A DNA stretch of 64,000 bases from Aurantiochytrium sp. KH105. Lineage: Eukaryota; Sar; Bigyra; Thraustochytrida; Thraustochytriidae. A program made the position numbers and the translations under genes. This document shows, in pieces, positions 10,746-43,654 of the stretch (its first letter is position 1; each line of letters begins with the position of its first letter). Location of the stretch: assembly GCA_003116975.1 (NCBI GenBank), contig BGKB01000196.1, positions 47,018-111,017 on the forward strand, written 5' to 3'. The notes beneath the pieces were generated by a model, which was not told the DNA's origin, searched no databases, and saw only the letters and a program-made list of their open reading frames with translations.

Positions 10746-13700
10746 ATGAGCGAAGACGCGGGCTCCCAGGAGGGCGGCTCCAACCAACCTCTTGTGCTCG
10801 TTCTCAACGCGAGCCCGGCGACGAGCTTCGAAGAAGAGATCGAAAATAGACCGGAGGCCTTAAAGGCGCTTCGGGACGAGGTCGATGTCGAGGCGCTCTC
10901 GCAGCTTTAACGGGTCTGGTGGATTCCGGGCAGAGAGGAAGGCGATTCAACGGAAATCGGGCTGGACGATGTCACTGGTCTGAAGAAAAAGTACCCGAAA
11001 GAAGAAGTGGAGGGCCTCGAGCTTTTTGCGCTTTGCCTTAGCACCTTGCTGGACGATCATGATTCTAAGTTGCTGGAAGATGAAGCTGATCATCAAAGAG
11101 CTCGGATCAATGTATCTTCCAAGAGCAAATGTGTCGCAAACATGCTCAGGGACCTTGCAGCAGAGTCACTCTCAGCACAAAGTCGCGATTTCTTACACCC
11201 GCTCAAGATGGCAAGACATGCTCCTCATTTCATCGAATTTAACGACTCTGATGATCTCCAAAGTCAACTGCAGGAGAAACTTTCACAAACAGATGCGCCC
11301 GAAACTCGCATTGTACTTTTACGCGATGCGGACAGCGCTGCTACCCAGAGTGTTCTGCTCGTGTTCACGTCCGAAACAGCTAAGAAGGTTCGTGAGCTTC
11401 TCGAATCAGAGGACATTGCTGAAGAAGCTGACGACGAGACGATAGGTGACGAGGACGAGGCAGCTGACCGGCCTGTACAAATCATCTTTGTTGTGGACAG
11501 CTCAAATGAAGAGGTGAATGGCCAAGAAGGAACCATCGAGCTCATTAGACCACGCTTCGAGACCGATCTGATACAGCGTCGGGATGATGCGAAGAAGCTG
11601 CTCACGCTCGAGAGAGCGTGGGAACAAGTGAAACGCGAGATCGAGAGCTTTGGACTGCTTCTTAAGCAAGACTTTCGTGAGCTTGTGAAGGAGGACCATG
11701 TAAAGATGGAGCTTGACGAAAAGAAAGAAAAGAAGCTTGACGACGATGAAGAAAAACCTTCTATGATGTATGTGAAGCTAGAAGTTAAGAAAGGGGCCTT
11801 TCAGGAGCAGAGCGCGCTTCGTCAGCAGATCGGCACGCCACAGCCTGATGTTGCGCATCCTGAGCAACGCGAGGTCGCCGAAGAGGTCTTTCGCAAAGCC
11901 GAGCAGGTCCTCTTTGGTCAAGTAGACGCAGACTGGACGTCCAAGTTCAACAGCGTCTCCTTCGTGGTGCTTACACCAAACTTCAACTCCCTGCAGTCCC
12001 AGACTGCAGACAGAGTCACACGCGCAAAGCTCGAGGGCGGACGCGTGCTCAAGCACACCAAGGTACCGCATGCGGCCATGAATGCGCACCGAGAGTGGAT
12101 GGAAGAGGAGGCCAAGAACCCAAAGACTCTCTTTGTCATCATCGCTGACGAGTGTCACTTTGCGCCGACGAAAGATGGCGCACACGACAGGCTTCTTAAC
12201 AATTCAAAGCTGAGTGGTGAGAATGTACTGCGTCTTCTCGTCTCTGCAACGCCGCAGAACGTACTTTCTAAGACTTCACGAGTTACCGACGACAACATCG
12301 TTCGCTGGTTCAAGCCCGCCTCGATGTACCGCAGCATGGATTACTATGTCGAGACGGCGACGTGGGCGGTGCCAAGTTACGTACAGCCGCTGAGACTCGC
12401 TGTCAAAGGGAAAAATTATGATGTCGACCCGCGTGTGTTCACGCATGAAGATTGTGAATACCGGTATCCGATGCACGAATACAAAGCATTCTGCAGTGTC
12501 TTCAATCGCAGGGTGGGTGAGGTGCTAGGCATGAGTATGGGGAAAGAGATCATTTCGGTTCAACGTGGTGAGGAGAACTTGTTGCTGGTCGTTCATTGTG
12601 ATGTTGACTTCGACTTTAACGAGAACTTCGATGATAATGGTCTTCTTTACTGGCTCGGCTTTGAGGACGATCGCGAACGCATGAATGCAGCACGTCAGGC
12701 TGCAATTAGAGATGGACGAAGACAGTACTACAGAGTAGGCGCATCGGGTATCCCACTCTTTTGCGATACAGCCGAAAACAACGAGGTCGTGGACTGTCTT
12801 CCACGTCGACGTCAGCGTGTACTCAAAGATGAGGCCTTTGATATCGTACGTGGACTCGCAAATAGATCGTTCGGCAAGCGAGGCGCACCCAAGCGTAAGC
12901 AAGAGACGATCAAGGTAGCCAAGTCGACTCCTCTCTACGATGGTCACATCATCATGGCAGACTACCTTCTTTCGCTCACATATCTTGCGGTGTATCGGGT
13001 TGACCATGGCAATCTCTGGAAAAGAGACTTGCGCCGCAAAGATATTTTTGCACCACTGGAGGAAGATGATGTCAGGCGACTTGCGCTTGACGATGAGAAG
13101 CTCAAGACCTTTGCTCTTCACCTTGGCTTTGCAGATCAAGTATGGCCAGGTGTTGGCCACGAAACAGACAAAGAAGTGGGGCGTTTCGAGATTGCTGATG
13201 GCGTTGAGAAAGCTTCCGTTCAACACCTTCTCAAGGTTCTTCTCGAGGCGACCGTGAGATCGGCATGGTCTGAATTGAGCAACCTGGACGAGGCCGCATG
13301 GCAGCACCTCACGAGACGGCTCAACGAAGAATGGGTCGCAAGAGCAACGAGTCTTGCAACAGCAGAAATTCATGATACGCCTGAGCATTGGCGATTCGCT
13401 TGGCAGTATGTCATCTCTGAGAAGCTGGAACGCAACCGCGAAGATCGCACGGAATCGCAAGGCAACACGTCTCAGGCGTGGTACAACGAGACCGATCGTC
13501 TCTTGCACGACCTGCTAGACGTTGATCCCAAGTACAGAACAGGACGTATGGCTGTCATTCGCGTCTACGAAACGGACGAGAACCTCTCGATACAGGACTG
13601 TCTCCGCAGCGCACTGAAAAAGCTAGGGCTCACTTGTGACGAGCACGGCGGCCTTCTTAGCGTCGTTGCAGATGTTGGTGGCAGCGATGGAAAGAAGCGA

Positions 13701-16700
13701 ACGTCTGAGGACAAGGTTGCAGACGTTGGTGGCAGCGATGGAAAGAAGAAGCGAATGTCTGAGGACAAGGTCGCAGACGTTGGTGGCAGCGATGGAAAGA
13801 AGAAGCGAACGGCTGAGAACAAGGTTGCAGACGTTGGTGGCAACGACGGAAAGAAGAAGCGAACGTCTGAAGGCCAGGAGGTGCGAAAGGCTGCTCGACG
13901 CGCGACAAGTCTTTTCACCCAGCTCGAGCCATGGACACTAACACGCGACCTGCGGCATCCTTCCAAACAAAAGGAGGCGGAAGCTGAGCGCGAGACCATT
14001 ATTGACCGCGTGAACAAGTCTTTTGCCGAAGCGCAGGCTCAGGAGGCTGAGGCACGGAAACATCTCGAAGAAGCATCTCGTCCTTCATCTTCTAAAGCTG
14101 TCCAGAAAACAGCCAAGTACGAGGACCTGGAGAACTTGCCCACGATCGTGATTCTGTGCGAGAAGGGGCGCATGGGTGACACCTTTCCGCATTCGTTTCG
14201 CTTTCTAGACATCCGTCTGCGCTCATCGAAGACGTACTCGACGTTTGTGCAAGAGTTCGGTCGCGTCTGCCGCTATCCAGGTCTTGACTCCAGCACTGCA
14301 GTAACCTTTGAGGTCTCTGAGGAAGGAGGCTGGGCGGCGCTTGAGCAACAGCTCGATGACTTTTTCAACGATCCTGAAGTGAGAAGGTATTTTGCCAAAG
14401 GCGGGAGCTATGCCGTTATGGACCCGGGCCAGGAGGTGCGTTTTCACGCCGACTCGGAGATGCAGCTCACTTCCGGGTTCCGTACGGCCTTGGGGAATGT
14501 CGATGATGGACGGGCGCGATTCGGCACGTGGACAGTGAAGCGCTACGTGCATGTGCTCCCGACGGTGCTGATGAACGCAGAGAGATACAACGCGCAGCTG
14601 CAAAAGGCAATCGAGCACAAGTATCGTGATGCGGAAGGACGCCAGCGCATTGATCAGTGCATTCCTGGTCCACTTGATCTGTACTTGTCTTCTGGGCCGA
14701 GACGCGCTGCCGCAGAATCGTGCCCTCGATTCGATACCATCAAAGGAGAGCAAGTCATCATCAATCCGATGCATGACATTGATTCTTACCGATCAAGAAG
14801 TGCACAAACGAGTCGGCAAGCTACTCACTACGACAGCGGGCACAGTGATGGTGACGATCCACGTCGTCTCTTGCTCATGGCGCAGTGCCAGCAGGGCAAG
14901 ACCGGGACATACCTTCATTTCCTGCGTTTGCTCAAGGAGCGCGTGGAGCTTGTGATTCCCACACCTCCTGATGCACTTCCGTTGGTTCCGCGAGCGGAGT
15001 GGACTTTGCCGCACTGGAGAAAACTCATTGTCAGCGCTCAAGCACCACTTAGCAAGTTCTACAATAGGCTTCAGACGAGCCAATATGACACGAGCATTAT
15101 GCAGCAGCGCACGCTTGTACTCATGCTTGCAAGTGAGAATGAATCCAACTGGCAAAAAACATACCCCGACTACTTGCTTCACGAAGATGGTGAAGCTGTC
15201 CAGTGCAAGGCTGGCAAAGTCAAAGTTGAAAAGCTTAGCCAGAAGCTTGCTCAAGAGCATGCTGCTCCTTTTAATGGTTCTCAGTGTACGAATGCTCAAC
15301 TCGCATTTGACTGTGTCAACTTTGACGGTCGGTTTTCTTCTGCCGAAGGAGATGCTCTCGCGAAGTCGTTTCTGGAAAGTAAACACAACACGGCTCAGCT
15401 TCGCGACATTTTGGACAAGCATGCACCAAAAAAAGGCACATCGATGGGACATCGGGTACGCCTTGCACGTCAGCACGTTCAACGTCAGCTTTGGGATGCC
15501 GGGTGTCGACACGGGAACATGAATCAGCTTGAAACCGGTGGGGCTGATAAGCTTACGCAGTCGATGAAAGCAGCGAATGCGTATGAGAGCGTCGCTGCTC
15601 GGTCTATTTCCCCAGAGTTCGACGGCAAGTATCATCGCAAGCAGTACGTTGTCAAAGATGTCAAGCTTGTAGGCGAGGGTGTTTGTTTGTCTGCACCCTA
15701 TGCTGGCTTTCACGACCTCAACCTCAAAGCGGATGCTTGCAACGTACAAATCAATGTCGGAAAGCGCAAGCTTCTTAACGTGAGACTGCCCGCGAAAGAG
15801 CATAACATGGGCACTGTAGACAAGGCCACGACCGTTCGTTGGGTGTTCGTGCCCTCGTACAATCGTGCCGGCGTCGCGCTCGTGGATTACGAAAAGGCGA
15901 TCCCTGGAGACGACAGCGGTAGGCCGACCGTCGTCTGTATCGTGGTCCGAAGTGGCAAGCAATTCGATGACTACGTAGCGGCGTATGGATCCGCTCATAT
16001 TATTCTCAGTCTTCCGGAATCGATGGCGTCCAAGTCTTCGGAAGGATCTCGTGTCTATGCAGATCGAGGTGGCATCGGATATGCTCGGCTGTTCATCCAG
16101 CTCGCAGCACATCAGCTCGGCCTTCCCTGGGTCTGGATCCTCGATGACAATGTCGATGTGTGCTATGAGCGCAAGCTTGAGGAGAAGGTCCCAGCGGATG
16201 CTCTAAGCGCCCGCCCAGATGCGTGCACGTTCTCAACGGTTATGACAGGCGTCGAGAGAATTGTGCACAACGAGGATGAAAAACTCACCGAAGCGCACCA
16301 GCAGAAACGCATGGAGAAGTGGGAGCACGAGAAGCCGATGCTTCTTCGGGGAAGTCCAGCTCCTAAAGCGAGCAGTGAAAATGCACGTACCAAAAAGGAG
16401 CTGACAGGAGGTTCAGATCAGTACGGACTGATTGGGATCCGTCGTGACCCACGAGCCTGCCCAACAGAGTCCAAGGATCCGTTCATGGTCACGTATTCGG
16501 TATACTCGTTCATCTTCTTGAATGTCACGAGCACTGTCAACGCTGGGGTCTTTTTCCCGGTCAAGACCTTCGGCGAGGACGTAGAGTTCAATCACCTGGT
16601 AGATGAGGCTGGCTTGGTCTGCCTCAAGGTGAATCGCTTCTTTCATCACAAAAAGAACCTCAAGCTGAGTGCGAAGGAGAAGAGGGAGCACACTGGCAAC

Positions 16701-17372
16701 GATGTGTCCCGGCAGGAATTTGCGAACCTTACGGAGGCGCTGGATCATTTCGGCGATATAAATGGTGGTATAAGGTCATCGTCTCTCTTGTCGAAGACGA
16801 TGCCAACATTTTTCGAGCCAGACAAGCTATGGGCTGAGAAGTTTTGGGAGCGAATTTCTGGCGGAGCTGATGCAAGGCCCTCAAATGCCCTGCTCACGAT
16901 CTTCTTGGAGGCTTCCTCAAACGATGCATACAACCTTATTTTGTTGCGGAGAGATGAACAGTTGTCGAAGCTGCTGCTTGTAGTCCGCGAGGAAGACATC
17001 AAAGCGTTTCCCGAGATTGCCAAGATTAAATATACGGGTCGCAGCATTAAGCTCGATGGTGCAAACAGTCGACTAAGCATAAAACAAAATATGCAAGTCA
17101 AGGAACCATATCCTATAAGGCTGCTTCATGTACAGATGGAAGGGATGCAAGAGCGCAAGCGTAAACGCCCCGCAATGGAACGGCGCTACGTCGCAACGCT
17201 CCAAGAAGCAATCGATAATAATTTGAAGCCGCAGGATGCCGTCAAATATTTCCGCAAAAAGTGGCCTGCGAAGCCAAATGACAAGCCGGAGTCGTTTCCG
17301 GACGATGATCAGCTCAAGAACAAGTACAGCAACATGAAGCGAACCCCCAAGAAGCGGAAGTCGGAAGGTTGA
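10746..17372 (+). CDS. Circularly permuted SF2 helicase fused to GREB1/TAGT-type glycosyltransferase; early in-frame stop
   Basis: A giant intronless frame. From ATG 10746 it reads 54 codons (MSEDAGSQEGG...) to an in-frame TAA at 10908-10910. It then continues open, without an ATG for over 200 bp, to TGA at 17370-17372. Numbering from the GTG at 11007, the SF2 motifs occur out of order: motif II DECH at 381-384, motif III SAT at 413-415, motif VI QEFGRVCR at 1082-1089, and only then Walker A AQCQQGKTGTY with K1298. A GT-A-like domain follows (about 1600-1900): WVFVPSYNRAG, GGIGYARLF, WILDDN (D1713-D1714) and FGEDVEF (E1857-D1858), then HHKKN. This order and these motifs match the permuted helicase plus TET/JBP-associated glycosyltransferase (TAGT) module described for GREB1. 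Known members are linked to sugar transfer onto hydroxymethylated DNA bases or proteins; the substrate here is inferred only. The Lys-rich C terminus suggests nuclear action. Confidence 0.65.
13665..13885 (+). repeat. Four in-frame 17-18 residue repeats inside the helicase
   Basis: Four tandem copies of a 51-54-bp unit encode VADVGGSDGKKKRTSEDK-like peptides, from about residue 887 of the frame opened at 11007. They lie in the long insert between helicase motifs III and VI. The units are Lys/Asp-rich and probably form a flexible, charged linker. Their high nucleotide identity suggests recent expansion or slippage. Confidence 0.85.
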
Positions 17373-38487: not shown

Positions 38488-41400
38488 TCAGCTAGAGTCA
38501 ATGCGATGAATGAGCTCGTCGTAAAAGGCTTCTGCCAGGTACAGACGACGCTGAAAGGGCATCGACTCGCGGGCATCGAAAATGTGCTTCGCCGTCTTTG
38601 GTGCCTTTTTAATGTACTTGGAGAAGTTGGCAAAACCCACACGATTCGGATCACTCTCGTGCACAAGAAGAATCGGTTTTGCTGCTTCCAAGGCCGTAGC
38701 AAGCTCCATGCACACCGCCTTCGAGCTGAAGACGGTCTTTGTCAAGAAGAGCAAATAGCACTTCGACGCTAGAATGCCATCTTTCATCTCCTTTGTCGAC
38801 AGATTGCCCTCCGTTCGCTGGTCGACCCACACTTTGAGTCCGCGGTGCTTGAGTTTTTCAGCCATGAGGTCGCACGCATCACCAGCTTCGTATTGCTTGT
38901 GACTCAAGAAAACATGGTACTGAAGCCTGGAGTCCAGGTGCATGTCTGCAAGTCTATCGATTCCGGTCGTGCCGTGAATGTCTTCTAGTAGCGAACCATC
39001 TTCAAAGAACCGTGCAAAGTCCGCCACTTCGACATGTGTTGCGTCCACGGACTCGACAGACCTGACATCTGATGCGCGCGCCTCCTCCAGATCACCGTGT
39101 GCGACCAGAACAGATGCGTCTGTCGGTGATTGCAGGAAAAGCTCCCAGGGCAAGTTTGGATAAAGCGCCTCGCGAGCGCCCTGGAACATGCTCAGTAGCA
39201 TCTTCAACGTGCTCGCTGGCTTGTCTGAGTCACGCTTCACGCGAATCCAGATCTCGTCGCCGATCTGCTCAAGTGCAAACACGGAGAGACCGAAGCGGAG
39301 GATGGCCTTATTTCCTGCCAGCCGAGGCGGGTGCTTCCGAGACACTGTATCTCCGCTGTGCTTGGCGCAGAGCGAAAGCAGGCGCGCAAAGAAGCCATCT
39401 GGGAGAAAGAACTCTGAAAAATCCAGAACGCAGGTCAGACCGGCGTCCATGCCAGCAATCTCCGCTGAAAGACTATCATTGGTCGAGTTCTTCAAAAAGC
39501 TGCTCACCAAAAAGAGAGGCTCATTTTCATGGGTCCTTGCGAGCGCCTTCTCGGGGAATGCCCAATCTGACAGCAGCATCGTCTCGTCCATGAAGGCGCG
39601 CAAGTAGTCGACTTCATCGTTCGCCCACAAGTACTTTAGCAAAACGCCTGTGCCGATTGCCTTCTCCCGCAGGACATTGAAATCGTCCACGAGCTCCAAC
39701 TTAGAGAGCTCTTTGTCATAGTAAATGTCCTGGACGTGCATGTCGTCCGCGATGACCCGTGCCAGCTTGTCTAAGAGCCATTGCGGCTTCATCACGACCT
39801 TATCGTGCAGAGCGGCAGTGGCACGCAGGTGCACCACCATTCCAAGGTCGTGGAAAAACTTGAGCAGCTCGTCCGTCTGATCTCCGGCGTGATACTTGGT
39901 TGCAAGCTCCTGCACTGTCGCGAACGAGACATAGTCGCAATCGAGCAACATGAGGTCGTCAATGACTTTGAGCCAACGCAGCGAAATCTTTTGCGAGACG
40001 GACTCGAGCTCTGAGGCAGTCTCTTCCACAGCATGCCGGAGATCGGCTGCACGATCATCCGCAGTGCTCATGTTGTCGACTAGAAAGAAGCTCCATTTGC
40101 TGGAGTGGTTCTTCACAAGCTTGACATTACGTAGAGCCTTTAAGTCCTTCCGCAGGATGCTCTCCACTGCTTCAAGTCTGTCACCTGCCTGATCAAAATG
40201 TGTTCCGATTAGTAGGACAGGCGCTTCGGGAGCGCGCAACTTGACCGAGTTGAGCCAAAAGGTCAGGTTCTTCAATGCTTTTTCTCGCTCGCCAAGGAGT
40301 TCTTGCATGTCAAAGACGAGCATGTAGACGCCACCCTCGCTCGTGAGAAAGATGTGGTGCAGCGCGTAAAAGACCTCCTGACCCGCATAGTCCCAGATCG
40401 TAAAGTAGATCTTCTGGCCCGAGCGCGTCTTGCCAGCCATGTTCTCAACCTCCGCAACATCGAACCGCTGCGCCACCTCGGCCTCGGGCACCAGTTCCAC
40501 GCGCTCCTCGGTTGTAGAGGATGCGGTTCCGAACTTCCGCGTGCGTCCCATTGTACTTGCTACAGCGCGAGCGAAGCGTGTCAAGGTGTCTACTATGTTC
40601 GTCGTGCCTCGACCTCGCACTGGCCCTTCCACGGTCATGCGCAGCGCGGCCATGCGATACGCCTGGCGTTCAAATCCGCTGTCGGCATCCTTGATCTCCT
40701 CCCAGGACTCTGCGTCGGTGCGCTTGAGCTCGACGCCCTCCGTCGAGATGTGCTCCGCCACAGGCTCCATGCCCAGCAGCGAGCGCACCGTGGACGTCTT
40801 GCCTGCGGCGCCCTGGCCGATGAGCATGAGCTTGCAGCGGCCCAGCTCCGCAGCGTCTCCGTTCGCCAGCGCCGTCTTGAGCGCCTCCTTCGCCGCCGCA
40901 CCGAGCACTTCCTCGATGGGCCGCACGGCCTCCGTGCCGTCGAGCACGCGCGTCGAGGCGCCCGTCTCCGCGTCCCAGATGCGCACGCTGCTGTCGTCAG
41001 ATCCGCTCACGGTCTCGACCCCGAGAGACAGACCGAGTTCGCATCTTGCGTGTCCTTGCAAGACGTGCAGCGCGTCTCCGCTGCGCGCGCCCCAGAGTCT
41101 GACCGTGTTGTCGCCGGACCCGCTCACGATGCGGTCTCCTTCGAGCGCGACAGAGCTCACATAGTTGGTGTGTCCTTCGAGGACGCGGACGAGCTGGAAG
41201 GAAGGCACGGCGTAGACCCTCACCTTGTAGTCGTCGGACCCGCTCACCATGCGCTGCGCGTCGATCGCGACCGCTCTTACCCATCCTGTCGCCTCTGTGA
41301 GAACGTGGAGTACGCGTCCGCTGGCCCGGTCGAAGACGCGCACGGTGCTGTCTTCCAACCCGGCCACGAGCAGGTTCTCGTGGGCGGCAACGCTGTAGAC

Positions 41401-41777
41401 CGTCGCCCCGGCGTCGAGCCTCAAGGTCTCTCGGCCGCTGATCTTGTCCCAGGCGCGGACGGTCTGGTCCCCGCCGGAGATGATTTCGTTGCCGTCAAAG
41501 ATGACGCTCAAGACATCGTCGTTGTGGCCCTGGAGGGCGTGCAGGACGGAGGCGGTGGCCAGCTCAATGAGGAAGAGGCCGCCTGCGTACGTCCCCACGG
41601 CGGCTAGGTTGCCCTGCACGGCCACCGAAAAGGCCGGCTCGTCGTTGGGCGTCCTCATCTCCAGCAGGAGCGCGCCGTCCCTTTCGCTCCACGCGCGCAA
41701 GCAGCAGTCGCCGCAGGCGGCCAGCACGAGGTCGGGGACTGCGCGACGCCGTGCACGTAGCCCTCGATGCGGCCCAT
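38488..41777 (-). CDS. WD40-Roc-COR-TIR protein (ROCO-type GTPase with TIR effector), one-base lesion in blade 1
   Basis: A single-exon gene of about 1,095 residues. The N-terminal seven-bladed WD40 propeller (nt about 41777-40960) has blades ending TVRAWD, TVRVFD, KVRVYA, TVRLWG and SVRIWD. Next is a Roc GTPase domain with P-loop GQGAAGKTST (about 40820-40790), switch DYAGQE (about 40395) and GTHFDQ (about 40200), then a COR domain (about 40100-39000). The C-terminal TIR domain (about 38925-38520) has YHVFLSHKQYEAGD, LKVWVDQ and AVCMELATA; the Glu at 38706-38704 sits where NAD-cleaving TIR domains have their catalytic Glu. Start choice: ATG 41777 gives MGRIEGYVHGVAQSP in one frame and the rest of blade 1 (DLVLAACGDC) lies in the adjoining frame. 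One base appears lost in the GGGG run at about 41734. An uninterrupted frame upstream to 42183 looks non-coding. The likely role is a ligand-sensing, GTP-switched immune or death signalling protein. Confidence 0.85.
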
Positions 41778-43027
41778 GGCGGCGCGCGTTATCAGCGGGG
41801 AGGGACCAGAGAGCGGGGAGAGAGAGACTCGGGCCGCGGGAAGGGAAAAGAAGCGCGCGAGGGCAGAGAGAGCCTGCGCTGGATGCTGATGGGATGCTAA
41901 GGCGAGGCGAGGCGAGGCGGTCTTGGCGCCTTCTCCGCGGGCGCGCGGACGGGGGGGAGGTGAAGAGGGCGGGCTTGCGCCTTGCGCGCCTGCCTGCCTG
42001 CCTGCCTGCCGCGCGGTCGTGCCGCGGCGCGAGGGCGAAGAGTGGAATTAGGTGTTTGGACAGAAAATTCCAGCGCGTGTATACATAACTTCGGATAAGA
42101 TACGCCAATCGAGGCACGCGCTGGCTGGTGTGCACCGTGGCAGACATGCTGGATCTGCCAGTGGTGAAGGGGGGTACCGTCACGATGAGCTTGCCATCAC
42201 CTTACAGCTAGCAAAGGCCCAGCGTACTCTCATTCCTTCGGAAAGTAATGCCGCCTTGATGGAGGCCCAGCGCATTATTCCACCACCTTGATTCAAATGC
42301 CGCTCCACAAGAGCCCATGCATTTCCTTTTTTACCATGCTATTCACTGCATGAACTATATTCATAAGCTGCACGAAGCCACGCTCACGCAAATTTGTTCG
42401 CCAGCAGACCCAAATCACCCGAATCACTCGAACCCGATCATACAAGGTTCCGAGGGCGACTTCATCGTCGGGTAGCCATTTGCAATCGGGCTCTTCCTGA
42501 TCGTTCGTCTCCCTTGCAATCTAGGCCAACAACTCTCTCGTCTCCGAGCAGCCGCGAGGTACTCCAACCTTTTCCTCCACATCGCGCTACGCGCGGAGGG
42601 AGGTTTCTTTTAACGTTCATACGAATCATCTTTGCCCAAAACCGACTTTGCGTCATTACGTGGAAGAGATAAAGTCATCTTGCGCTCACTTTGTAAACAC
42701 GCTCGCGACAGATGCGAGCAAGAATGTATATCCTGTCGTGGCCGACATCATTCTTCGGCATGCCCTGAGCCGTTAGTCGCTTGGTCGATCGAAGGATAGA
42801 TTTTGTAAATTTGCATGGATAGTGACCAACCAAATCGGTCTCAGTCCGAGGCTCACGGCCTGTGCACGTGCGGCGGGTCCTCCCAAAACCGTGAACCCAT
42901 CACACGTGCACGACACGCGCGTAGCGCCGCGCCCCCTCGCGCTCTCGCGCGCCGCTCACGCGGAGCGCGTCCAGCGAAGCACGGACGCAGACGGGGCTGC
43001 GTGCGAAACGACCCACCGGCGCAAACC
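41778..43027. other. Divergent intergenic region between WD40-Roc-COR-TIR and ankyrin genes
   Basis: About 1.25 kb. The first 250 bp are GC-rich with GGCGA and CTGC repeats (about 41903-41925 and 41990-42012) and probably hold the minus-strand gene's promoter. The rest, 42050-42800, has lower GC and no gene. The ankyrin frame is open upstream to 42815, but that part is Arg-rich and unrelated to ankyrin repeats. Confidence 0.6.
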
Positions 43028-43654
43028 ATGGTGACAAAGTTTCCTTCGTGGGCGATGAGACGGCTCATCGCGGCGGGCGACCTCGCGGGGGTCCAGCGCG
43101 CTGTGCAGGAGAACCCAGCCAAGCTCGACGCGCCCGTGACAAGGTGGAACGACACGCCGCTCACGTGGTCTCTCAATCCCAAGTCCGGTCCTCAACCCGT
43201 TATCGCAAGATGGCTCATCGAACGCGGCGCAAGCTTGGATCTACAGGACCATGTCGGCTGGGGCGCCCTGAGATTCGCGTGCCAACACAAGCAGCTCGAC
43301 ATGGCTGAGCTGCTCATTCACCGCGGCGCAGACTTGGATTTGCAGTGTATCGATGGCTGGAGTGCATTAATGTCCGTATGCAAGTATGGCCCGCCCGAGT
43401 TGGGCCATCTGCTCGTGCATCACGGTGCAAACCTTGATTTGCAAACAGAAAAGGGGGAAACCGCTCTCATGTTTGCGTGCTCGTACGAGCAGCCCGAGAT
43501 GGCTCAGTTGCTCATTCACCGCGGTGCGCGTCTAAATTTGCAAAACAACGATGGCGAAACAGCGCTTCTCTTTGCGTGTATGAAAGGGCAGCTCGAAACG
43601 GCGCAGCTACTCATCTACCATGGCGCAGGCTTGGACGTTCAAAAGACCAAATGA
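43028..43654 (+). CDS. Small ankyrin-repeat protein
   Basis: A 208-codon single-exon gene. The ATG at 43028 (AACCATGG context) starts MVTKFPSWAMRRLIAAGDLA, a capping helix, followed by five ankyrin repeats. These have the pattern G-x-x-AL-x-x-A/V-C then LLI-HRGA-x-LDLQ (for example GETALMFACSYEQPEMAQLL). The protein ends exactly at a repeat boundary (LDVQKTK), with no other domain, so it should act as a binding module. Low repeat-to-repeat divergence suggests recent expansion. A GTAAGT donor-like site lies 17 bp after the stop, so a longer spliced form that skips this stop cannot be excluded. It diverges from the WD40-Roc-COR-TIR gene; a functional link is only a guess. Confidence 0.75.
   Translation: MVTKFPSWAMRRLIAAGDLAGVQRAVQENPAKLDAPVTRWNDTPLTWSLNPKSGPQPVIARWLIERGASLDLQDHVGWGALRFACQHKQLDMAELLIHRGADLDLQCIDGWSALMSVCKYGPPELGHLLVHHGANLDLQTEKGETALMFACSYEQPEMAQLLIHRGARLNLQNNDGETALLFACMKGQLETAQLLIYHGAGLDVQKTK

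Follow-up and report, generated by a model that had tools for sequence, protein, structure and literature searches.

Plant TNL and animal NLR receptors combine a repeat sensor, a nucleotide switch and a death-signalling domain, and they form large variable families. In extracts of a study of Podospora anserina (PMC1805685), the NACHT-WD40 proteins HET-D and HET-E of the NWD/HNWD family carry positively selected codons at positions 7, 9, 25 and 27 of the WD40 repeat, modelled on the top face. Extracts of a second article (PMC11378527) propose the LRR-ROCO proteins of brown algae as immune receptors diversified by exon shuffling and alternative splicing, and report a TPR-ROCO-TIR protein in Chondrus crispus. 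Here we describe a gene for a protein with a WD40 propeller, a Roc-COR GTPase and a C-terminal TIR domain, located on the minus strand of a 64,000-nucleotide stretch of contig BGKB01000196.1 from the thraustochytrid Aurantiochytrium sp. KH105 (the window), together with its relatives in the same genome. We consider it likely that these genes form a ROCO-based, NLR-like repertoire of non-self sensors, diversified by gene conversion and diversifying selection and acting through a TIR output.

Judged from sequence, the family resembles HET-D/E in pattern and is built instead on a ROCO GTPase and a TIR domain. Both have a WD40 sensor in which the selected residues flank a conserved position at two places per repeat, and both are multigene families in concerted evolution with a homogenised framework. 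They differ in the switch (NACHT there, Roc-COR here), in the effector (HET there, a C-terminal TIR here), in the placement of the propeller, which is N-terminal here, and in size, with 10 members there against about 60 loci here in a two-haplotype assembly. With the ROCO proteins of brown algae and Chondrus the family shares a central Roc-COR and a repeat sensor, and with Chondrus also the TIR; unlike the brown-algal LRR-ROCO proteins, it uses a WD40 sensor, and its diversification lies in individual codons of a single long open frame. Plant TNL and animal NLR receptors offer the same combination of repeat sensor, nucleotide switch and death-signalling module in a large variable family, whereas domain order and nucleotide switch differ. 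The earlier note on this DNA, made by a model from the sequence, had called the architecture unusual, which fits these findings: a TPR-ROCO-TIR protein is reported from Chondrus in the extracts of PMC11378527, and no WD40-Roc-COR-TIR family was named in the titles and abstract openings that our searches of openly licensed PMC papers listed, an earlier description elsewhere being possible.

Domain architecture and family size

The minus-strand open frame at 38488–42183 encodes 1231 amino acids (aa). A Pfam search of the whole protein detected WD40 (PF00400, E = 1.1e-23, four stretches), Roc (PF08477, 2e-19, 70.4 bits against a cut-off of 27), COR-A (PF16095, 7.7e-11, 42.5 bits against 35.3) and TIR_2 (PF13676, 9.5e-10, 39.5 bits against 28). 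All four exceeded their cut-offs, bearing out the order WD40, Roc, COR, TIR that had been proposed for a single chain, and the succession of a Roc GTPase and COR that marks ROCO proteins is present. In our reading, the aligned repeats suggest a propeller of seven blades. The P-loop motif G-x4-GK-[ST] was found in 29 of the 33 pieces compared below, the window copy among them; L012a, L024b and L043b come from split genes in which the P-loop lies on the other piece, and the remaining exception is L041. Of the 37 Pfam families matching the window protein at E ≤ 1, the 25 shown include neither NACHT nor NB-ARC. Membership in the NACHT or NB-ARC class (NLR/STAND) was rejected, Roc-COR occupying that place.

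The source assembly comprises 76 Mb in 367 contigs and contains both haplotypes, as indicated by many small-GTPase matches that pair with equal scores and by window flanks that match contig C15 at 85–96%. Eukaryotic genes (MAT1, a JAB/MPN subunit, small GTPases) are present. Searching this genome with the 101-aa hinge between WD40 and Roc gave 122 matches (133 of 133 candidates scored). The best 60 of these (E ≤ 1.3e-21, 72–100% identity) represent about 60 family loci, a count that includes both haplotypes and broken copies, several of them short or interrupted frames. The others are 49 matches at 40–55% identity, which by sequence are more distant ROCO loci, one second piece of C148 and 12 weaker matches. 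With the whole protein as query, all 38 matches scored (of 852 candidates) had E = 0 and 63–100% identity, well beyond chance, the 100% match being the gene itself.

Related architectures occur in the same genome. In five further proteins scanned, Roc, COR-A and TIR_2 were found in 5/5 and WD40 in 4/5; the one lacking it, L050, is a Roc-COR-TIR protein. It belongs to the second ROCO group, that of the hinge matches at 40–55% identity (also on C197, C13, C69, C138 and others), with frames of about 850–1018 aa. TIR_2 had at least 150 matches in the genome, all over the cut-off (150 of 258 candidates scored). Among the matches listed, a search with the WD40 segment also found frames of about 330–560 aa, too short for the four-domain architecture; L021:909–1886 and L028:847–1974, directly upstream of family members, are WD40-only by translation, and such frames are possible conversion donors. 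Further short frames with the same WD40 blades lie on C259, C235, C157 and C26:116328, among others. A third class, among the same listed matches, has WD40 hits at intervals of some 120 bases, its frames being about 1000–1900 aa long and many also holding TIR matches. TIR and tandem WD40 frames of this kind occur at C17:563–567 kb and on C24, C40, C21, C68, C72, C329 and others, several near contig ends. In one of them (L051 on C17, 1266 aa), NPHP3_N (1.3e-18) lies between TIR and WD40, and NACHT (1.4e-4) stayed below the cut-off. To judge by its domains, this type, with a STAND-like NPHP3_N and a WD40 array, appears nearer to classical NLRs with WD40 arrays. Finally, a contig scan with a Roc-COR-TIR alignment and two short patterns returned 71 pattern stretches and no confirmed relative, which does not imply absence from prokaryotes.

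Hypervariable codons and exchange in the propeller

We compared 30 genes, namely the window copy and 29 fetched relatives, which make up 33 pieces. Entropy was calculated for 29 of them (without L012b, L024b, L043b and L023) and, in the main set, for 24 sequences that also omit the near-copies L013, L016, L020, L045 and L049. In the main set, mean entropy was 2.57 bits at the 26 positions in HET-D/E register and 0.41 bits in the rest of WD40 (Mann-Whitney p = 2.5e-15); of the 26 WD40 sites that varied most, 22 fell in register. Register sites sit on either side of two conserved residues per blade, the V of xVxSV and the D of SxDxTV, which we equated with HET codons 8 and 26 from the 18-residue spacing and the HET-E repeat; site 201, one of the positions defined in advance, does not vary and still counts as a miss. 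The ratio of nonsynonymous to synonymous differences (pN/pS) was 1.75 at register sites (1.49–2.14 in a bootstrap over 22 genes) and 0.54 (0.47–0.69) elsewhere in WD40. Entropy and pN/pS together thus indicate selection of the HET-D/E type at four register positions per repeat, as measured by a counting method and not a likelihood site test. In 40-codon windows, pN/pS was 0.15–0.58 in Roc-COR and 0.26–0.28 in the TIR domain (aa 1071 to 1190).

The same contrast was seen in nucleotide distances between non-allelic copies (26 pieces), with medians of 0.085 in the framework and 0.511, near saturation, at the 30 hypervariable codons, beside 0.244 in Roc, 0.314 in COR and 0.313 in TIR. Face-residue sets were all different in the 24 WD40 modules compared (of 29, leaving out the near-identical alleles L013, L016 and L020 and the broken copies L012a and L024a). 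The roughly 30 hypervariable codons look like fast-changing recognition sites on a predicted binding face. This evolutionary evidence supports the recognition role that the earlier note gave to the propeller, and its “possible immune sensor” has become better supported, as about 60 loci, this gene among them, carry hypervariable codons on the binding face.

Seven pairs of copies are allelic by both flanks. Register sites differed at 14/24 in the window copy and L012, 18/26 in L010/L022, 21/25 in L021/L028 and 17/20 in L019/L024a, as opposed to 1/26 in L017/L020, 0/25 in L015/L016 and 0/26 in L009/L013, so that the faces differ strongly at four of the seven loci and are nearly alike at three. 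Taken together, the pairs differ at 71 of 172 register sites, compared with 108 of 1598 sites elsewhere in WD40 (odds ratio 9.7, p = 2.7e-31), and replacement to silent changes are 71:8 and 108:77, respectively (p = 1.5e-7). In the window's pair, 39 of 235 other WD40 sites also differ, more than in most pairs, and its WD40 halves may therefore have different sources. L019 and L024 were taken as alleles since both flanks match throughout; as L023 has the upstream flank of L019/L024 and L026 the downstream flank of L023, the four are a set of segmental copies, and of the seven pairings this one is the least secure.

Silent divergence varies along the gene. Over 320 of 325 pairs from the same 26 of the 33 pieces (broken ones and L023 out, five allelic pairs out), pS was 0.145–0.24 at aa 151–470, 0.27 at 471–510, 0.32–0.46 up to 630 and 0.52–0.75 beyond, and G+C content at third codon positions was 0.84–0.95 up to aa 470 and 0.58–0.79 after it. 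Low silent divergence and high third-position G+C in the 5' half only fit repeated GC-biased gene conversion, which we infer as the cause of the low divergence in WD40; strong constraint on silent sites of the 5' half is a less likely alternative. Across 23 modules, the framework of the same blade was on average 93% identical in nucleotides between genes, that of different blades within a gene 58% (five blades), and module length was 280–290 aa in 23/23. The near-identical repeats within one gene and the variable repeat number of HET-D/E are thus absent, and exchange would be in register between genes, not within the repeat array. It also seems to touch gene parts outside WD40, as the alleles L010/L022 have a synonymous divergence (dS) of 0.77 in TIR despite flanks 93–95% identical and L017/L020 one of 0.60 in COR.

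Identical loops were shared between genes in 95 pairs against 65.4 expected under site independence (22 genes, with L045 and L049 left out). Among the 24 modules compared, neighbouring loops were shared jointly in 22 cases against 6.1 expected, an excess that weakens without L045 and L049 since it comes mostly from the close pairs L027/L045 and L048/L049. These counts lend weak support to loop shuffling between genes. Conversion with selection would account for most of the change, while the high third-position variation and modest loop sharing leave room for a local mutator, or for long-kept diversity, at the hypervariable codons.

TIR domain, gene limits and neighbouring features

TIR_2 matched all 16 family TIRs in Pfam. 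M-E-L is kept in 16 of 16 aligned TIRs, and V-x-[MI]-E-L-x-x-A in 29 of 30 pieces that reach the domain, the exception, L041, still having the glutamate in the alignment. Compared with solved structures, the family TIR profile matched best the bacterial TIR 7uwg (3.1e-5), followed by the hydrolase of nicotinamide adenine dinucleotide (NAD) AbTIR (8.3e-5) and, more weakly, 3h16 (PdTIR), TIR-APAZ proteins (SPARTA), TIR-1 and SARM1. In these profile alignments, the family glutamate falls on that of 7uwg, AbTIR, 3h16 and 8j7s, so the CMEL glutamate singled out in the earlier note is both kept and aligned. What the family appears to share with bacterial TIR NADases, TIR-APAZ proteins, SARM1 and TIR-1 is, by profile, a TIR fold, and its alpha-C glutamate aligns with that of AbTIR, 3h16 and a TIR-APAZ-like chain, where it is catalytic; it differs in its low sequence similarity (SARM1 0.52, TIR-1 0.12). 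The TIR output is probably NAD-cleaving.

Features of the window gene are collected in Table 1. The limits proposed for it, 38488 to 41777, were right, 41777 being a start codon kept in relatives, but as assembled this interval is not a single reading frame, with a break about 14 codons after the ATG. The open frame upstream of 41777 is a GC-rich, poorly conserved leader, and intact copies of the family are present elsewhere in the genome.

Table 1. Features of the WD40-Roc-COR-TIR gene, in window coordinates
Feature	Position	Strand	Remark
WD40-Roc-COR-TIR gene, window copy	38488..41777	-	frame break about 14 codons past the ATG as assembled
Start ATG at 41777, kept in relatives, with the beginning of the propeller module	41734..41777	-	out of frame with the remainder in the window copy
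WD40 propeller module, aa 151-415	40939..41733	-	homogenised framework and hypervariable codons
Blade 6, as example	41050..41169	-	hypervariable codons aa 340, 341, 343, 357, 359
Equivalent hypervariable sites, other blades			aa 158,160,161 / 183,185,199,200 / 222,223,225,238,240 / 261,263,277,279 / 301,303,317,319 / 380,381,383,396,398
Roc GTPase domain, about aa 450-690	40114..40836	-	P-loop GQGAAGKTS; Pfam
COR region, about aa 691-1075	38959..40113	-	Pfam COR-A at aa 736-816
TIR domain, about aa 1088-1231	38491..38922	-	Pfam TIR_2 at aa 1091-1174
TIR alpha-C glutamate codon, aa 1160 (CMEL)	38704..38706	-	lines up with the equivalent Glu in bacterial TIRs

Upstream of the receptor gene, a stretch of about 420 bp (42214–42634) has dozens of copies in the genome at roughly 70–82% identity. 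Head to head with the receptor gene, 42815–43654 on the plus strand encodes a single-frame ankyrin-repeat protein with similar repeats, which could be another diversified repeat family. A plus-strand frame of 2121 aa (11007–17372) contains a GREB1-type circularly permuted SF2 helicase and a TET-associated glycosyltransferase domain, and may point to modified DNA bases in the organism.

Proposed mechanism, alternatives and meaning

We propose that about 30 hypervariable residues on the top face of the WD40 propeller would bind a ligand that varies and is either non-self or modified self. Binding may alter the nucleotide or dimer state of Roc-COR, by analogy with ROCO proteins, and bring the C-terminal TIRs together; the aligned glutamate suggests that NAD cleavage or a nucleotide signal, and with it a local or suicidal response, could follow. 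A ROCO GTPase would stand in for the usual STAND ATPase in an NLR-like family of about 60 loci with a putative immune or allorecognition role, gene conversion would keep the WD40 framework near-identical, and strong diversifying selection would act on the face codons.

Several points weigh against this reading. Interrupted frames in the window copy and in 3 of the 29 fetched relatives, and one more relative without most of WD40, mean that some members may be pseudogenes or contain errors of assembly; the P-loop of L041 is degenerate. The register was mapped onto the blades after the entropies had been seen, and 5 of the 31 sites (161, 200, 222, 340 and 380) were added from the data. That the sites share one face is taken from the HET-E register because both single-sequence AlphaFold models were too poor: that of the window WD40 had a mean predicted local distance difference test score (pLDDT) of 46, too low to use, and that of the window TIR one of 42, too low for reading the fold. 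Neither the gene bootstrap nor the Fisher tests allow for relatedness or recombination, pS outside WD40 is near saturation, and three of the seven allelic pairs are near-identical at register sites (0, 0 and 1 differences). The likeness of the TIR to solved structures is weak by sequence even as a profile, 3.1e-5 being its best value, and the window TIR as a single sequence reached 0.051 at best. A tryptophan near the glutamate is usual in several NADase TIRs; the family TIR does not have it.

Some of the same data would also be explained in other ways. Allorecognition, that is, discrimination of self and non-self within the species as by het-d/het-e, would employ the same mechanism with a polymorphic self protein as ligand, and it accounts for the same data as the immune-sensor reading. 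The hypervariable register is that of HET-D/E, whose ligand is the polymorphic HET-C in extracts of PMC1805685 and PMC12222747, and alleles of one locus can have almost wholly different faces (18/26, 21/25 and 17/20, and 14/24 in the window's pair). Since about 60 loci and the further TIR families look more like a broad defence repertoire, and the face is nearly the same in three of seven allelic pairs, we keep allorecognition as a tentative possibility. Signalling in housekeeping or development, with propellers of a lineage-specific ROCO family docking on differing endogenous partners and the TIR as a scaffold without immune role, is in keeping with the signalling roles of ROCO proteins elsewhere. 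Stable partners would hardly call for recurrent change at fixed face codons beside low pN/pS in TIR and Roc-COR, nor for strong divergence between some alleles, and we regard this explanation as very unlikely.

How the codons came to vary is a separate matter. Alteration by a dedicated local mutator or templated diversification would suit the alleles L010/L022, which differ at 44% of nucleotides in the hypervariable codons and 2.3% in the framework. It would likewise suit the raised third-position heterozygosity (0.39 against 0.11 in the framework) and pS (0.31 against 0.14 elsewhere) at these codons, and the near loss of joint loop sharing, which shuffling predicts, without the two close relatives (6 cases against 3.1 expected). 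Third positions nevertheless vary less than first (0.54) and second (0.53) ones, as expected under selection on amino acids, no single base stands out as a target in the make-up of the hypervariable codons, identical loops recur somewhat above the level of site independence, and in three of the seven allelic pairs there is almost no change; on balance, targeted mutagenesis is unlikely. One could also envisage an antibody-like germline ROCO repertoire in a possibly unicellular eukaryote, with some 60 loci that keep a conserved propeller framework, are coupled to TIR death signalling and have about 30 codons of one face altered by a dedicated process, either directed mutagenesis or in-register conversion at a high rate with WD40-only and full-length genes as donors. 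This strikes us as doubtful. Misassembly or misalignment of near-identical paralogues might also yield a mosaic pattern; some copies have broken frames, and in Podospora, according to extracts of PMC12222747, similar WD40 arrays are not assembled reliably from short reads. Misassembly would not bias differences towards replacement at a fixed codon set, the register is regular in 24 different modules with mostly open frames, and flanks put the copies at separate loci with allelic partners, making an artefact highly improbable.

If the reading of a ROCO-based sensor repertoire is true, hypervariable NLR-like recognition would extend to a Roc-COR GTPase switch, in a convergent counterpart of fungal HET-D/E whose alleles have strongly diverged at some loci. 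With about 30 face positions that tolerate change, the propeller scaffold would be a natural template for designed binders. The family also opens to direct testing how non-self is recognised by eukaryotes other than animals, plants and fungi, and whether immune sensing lies in the background of ROCO proteins, the family of LRRK2.

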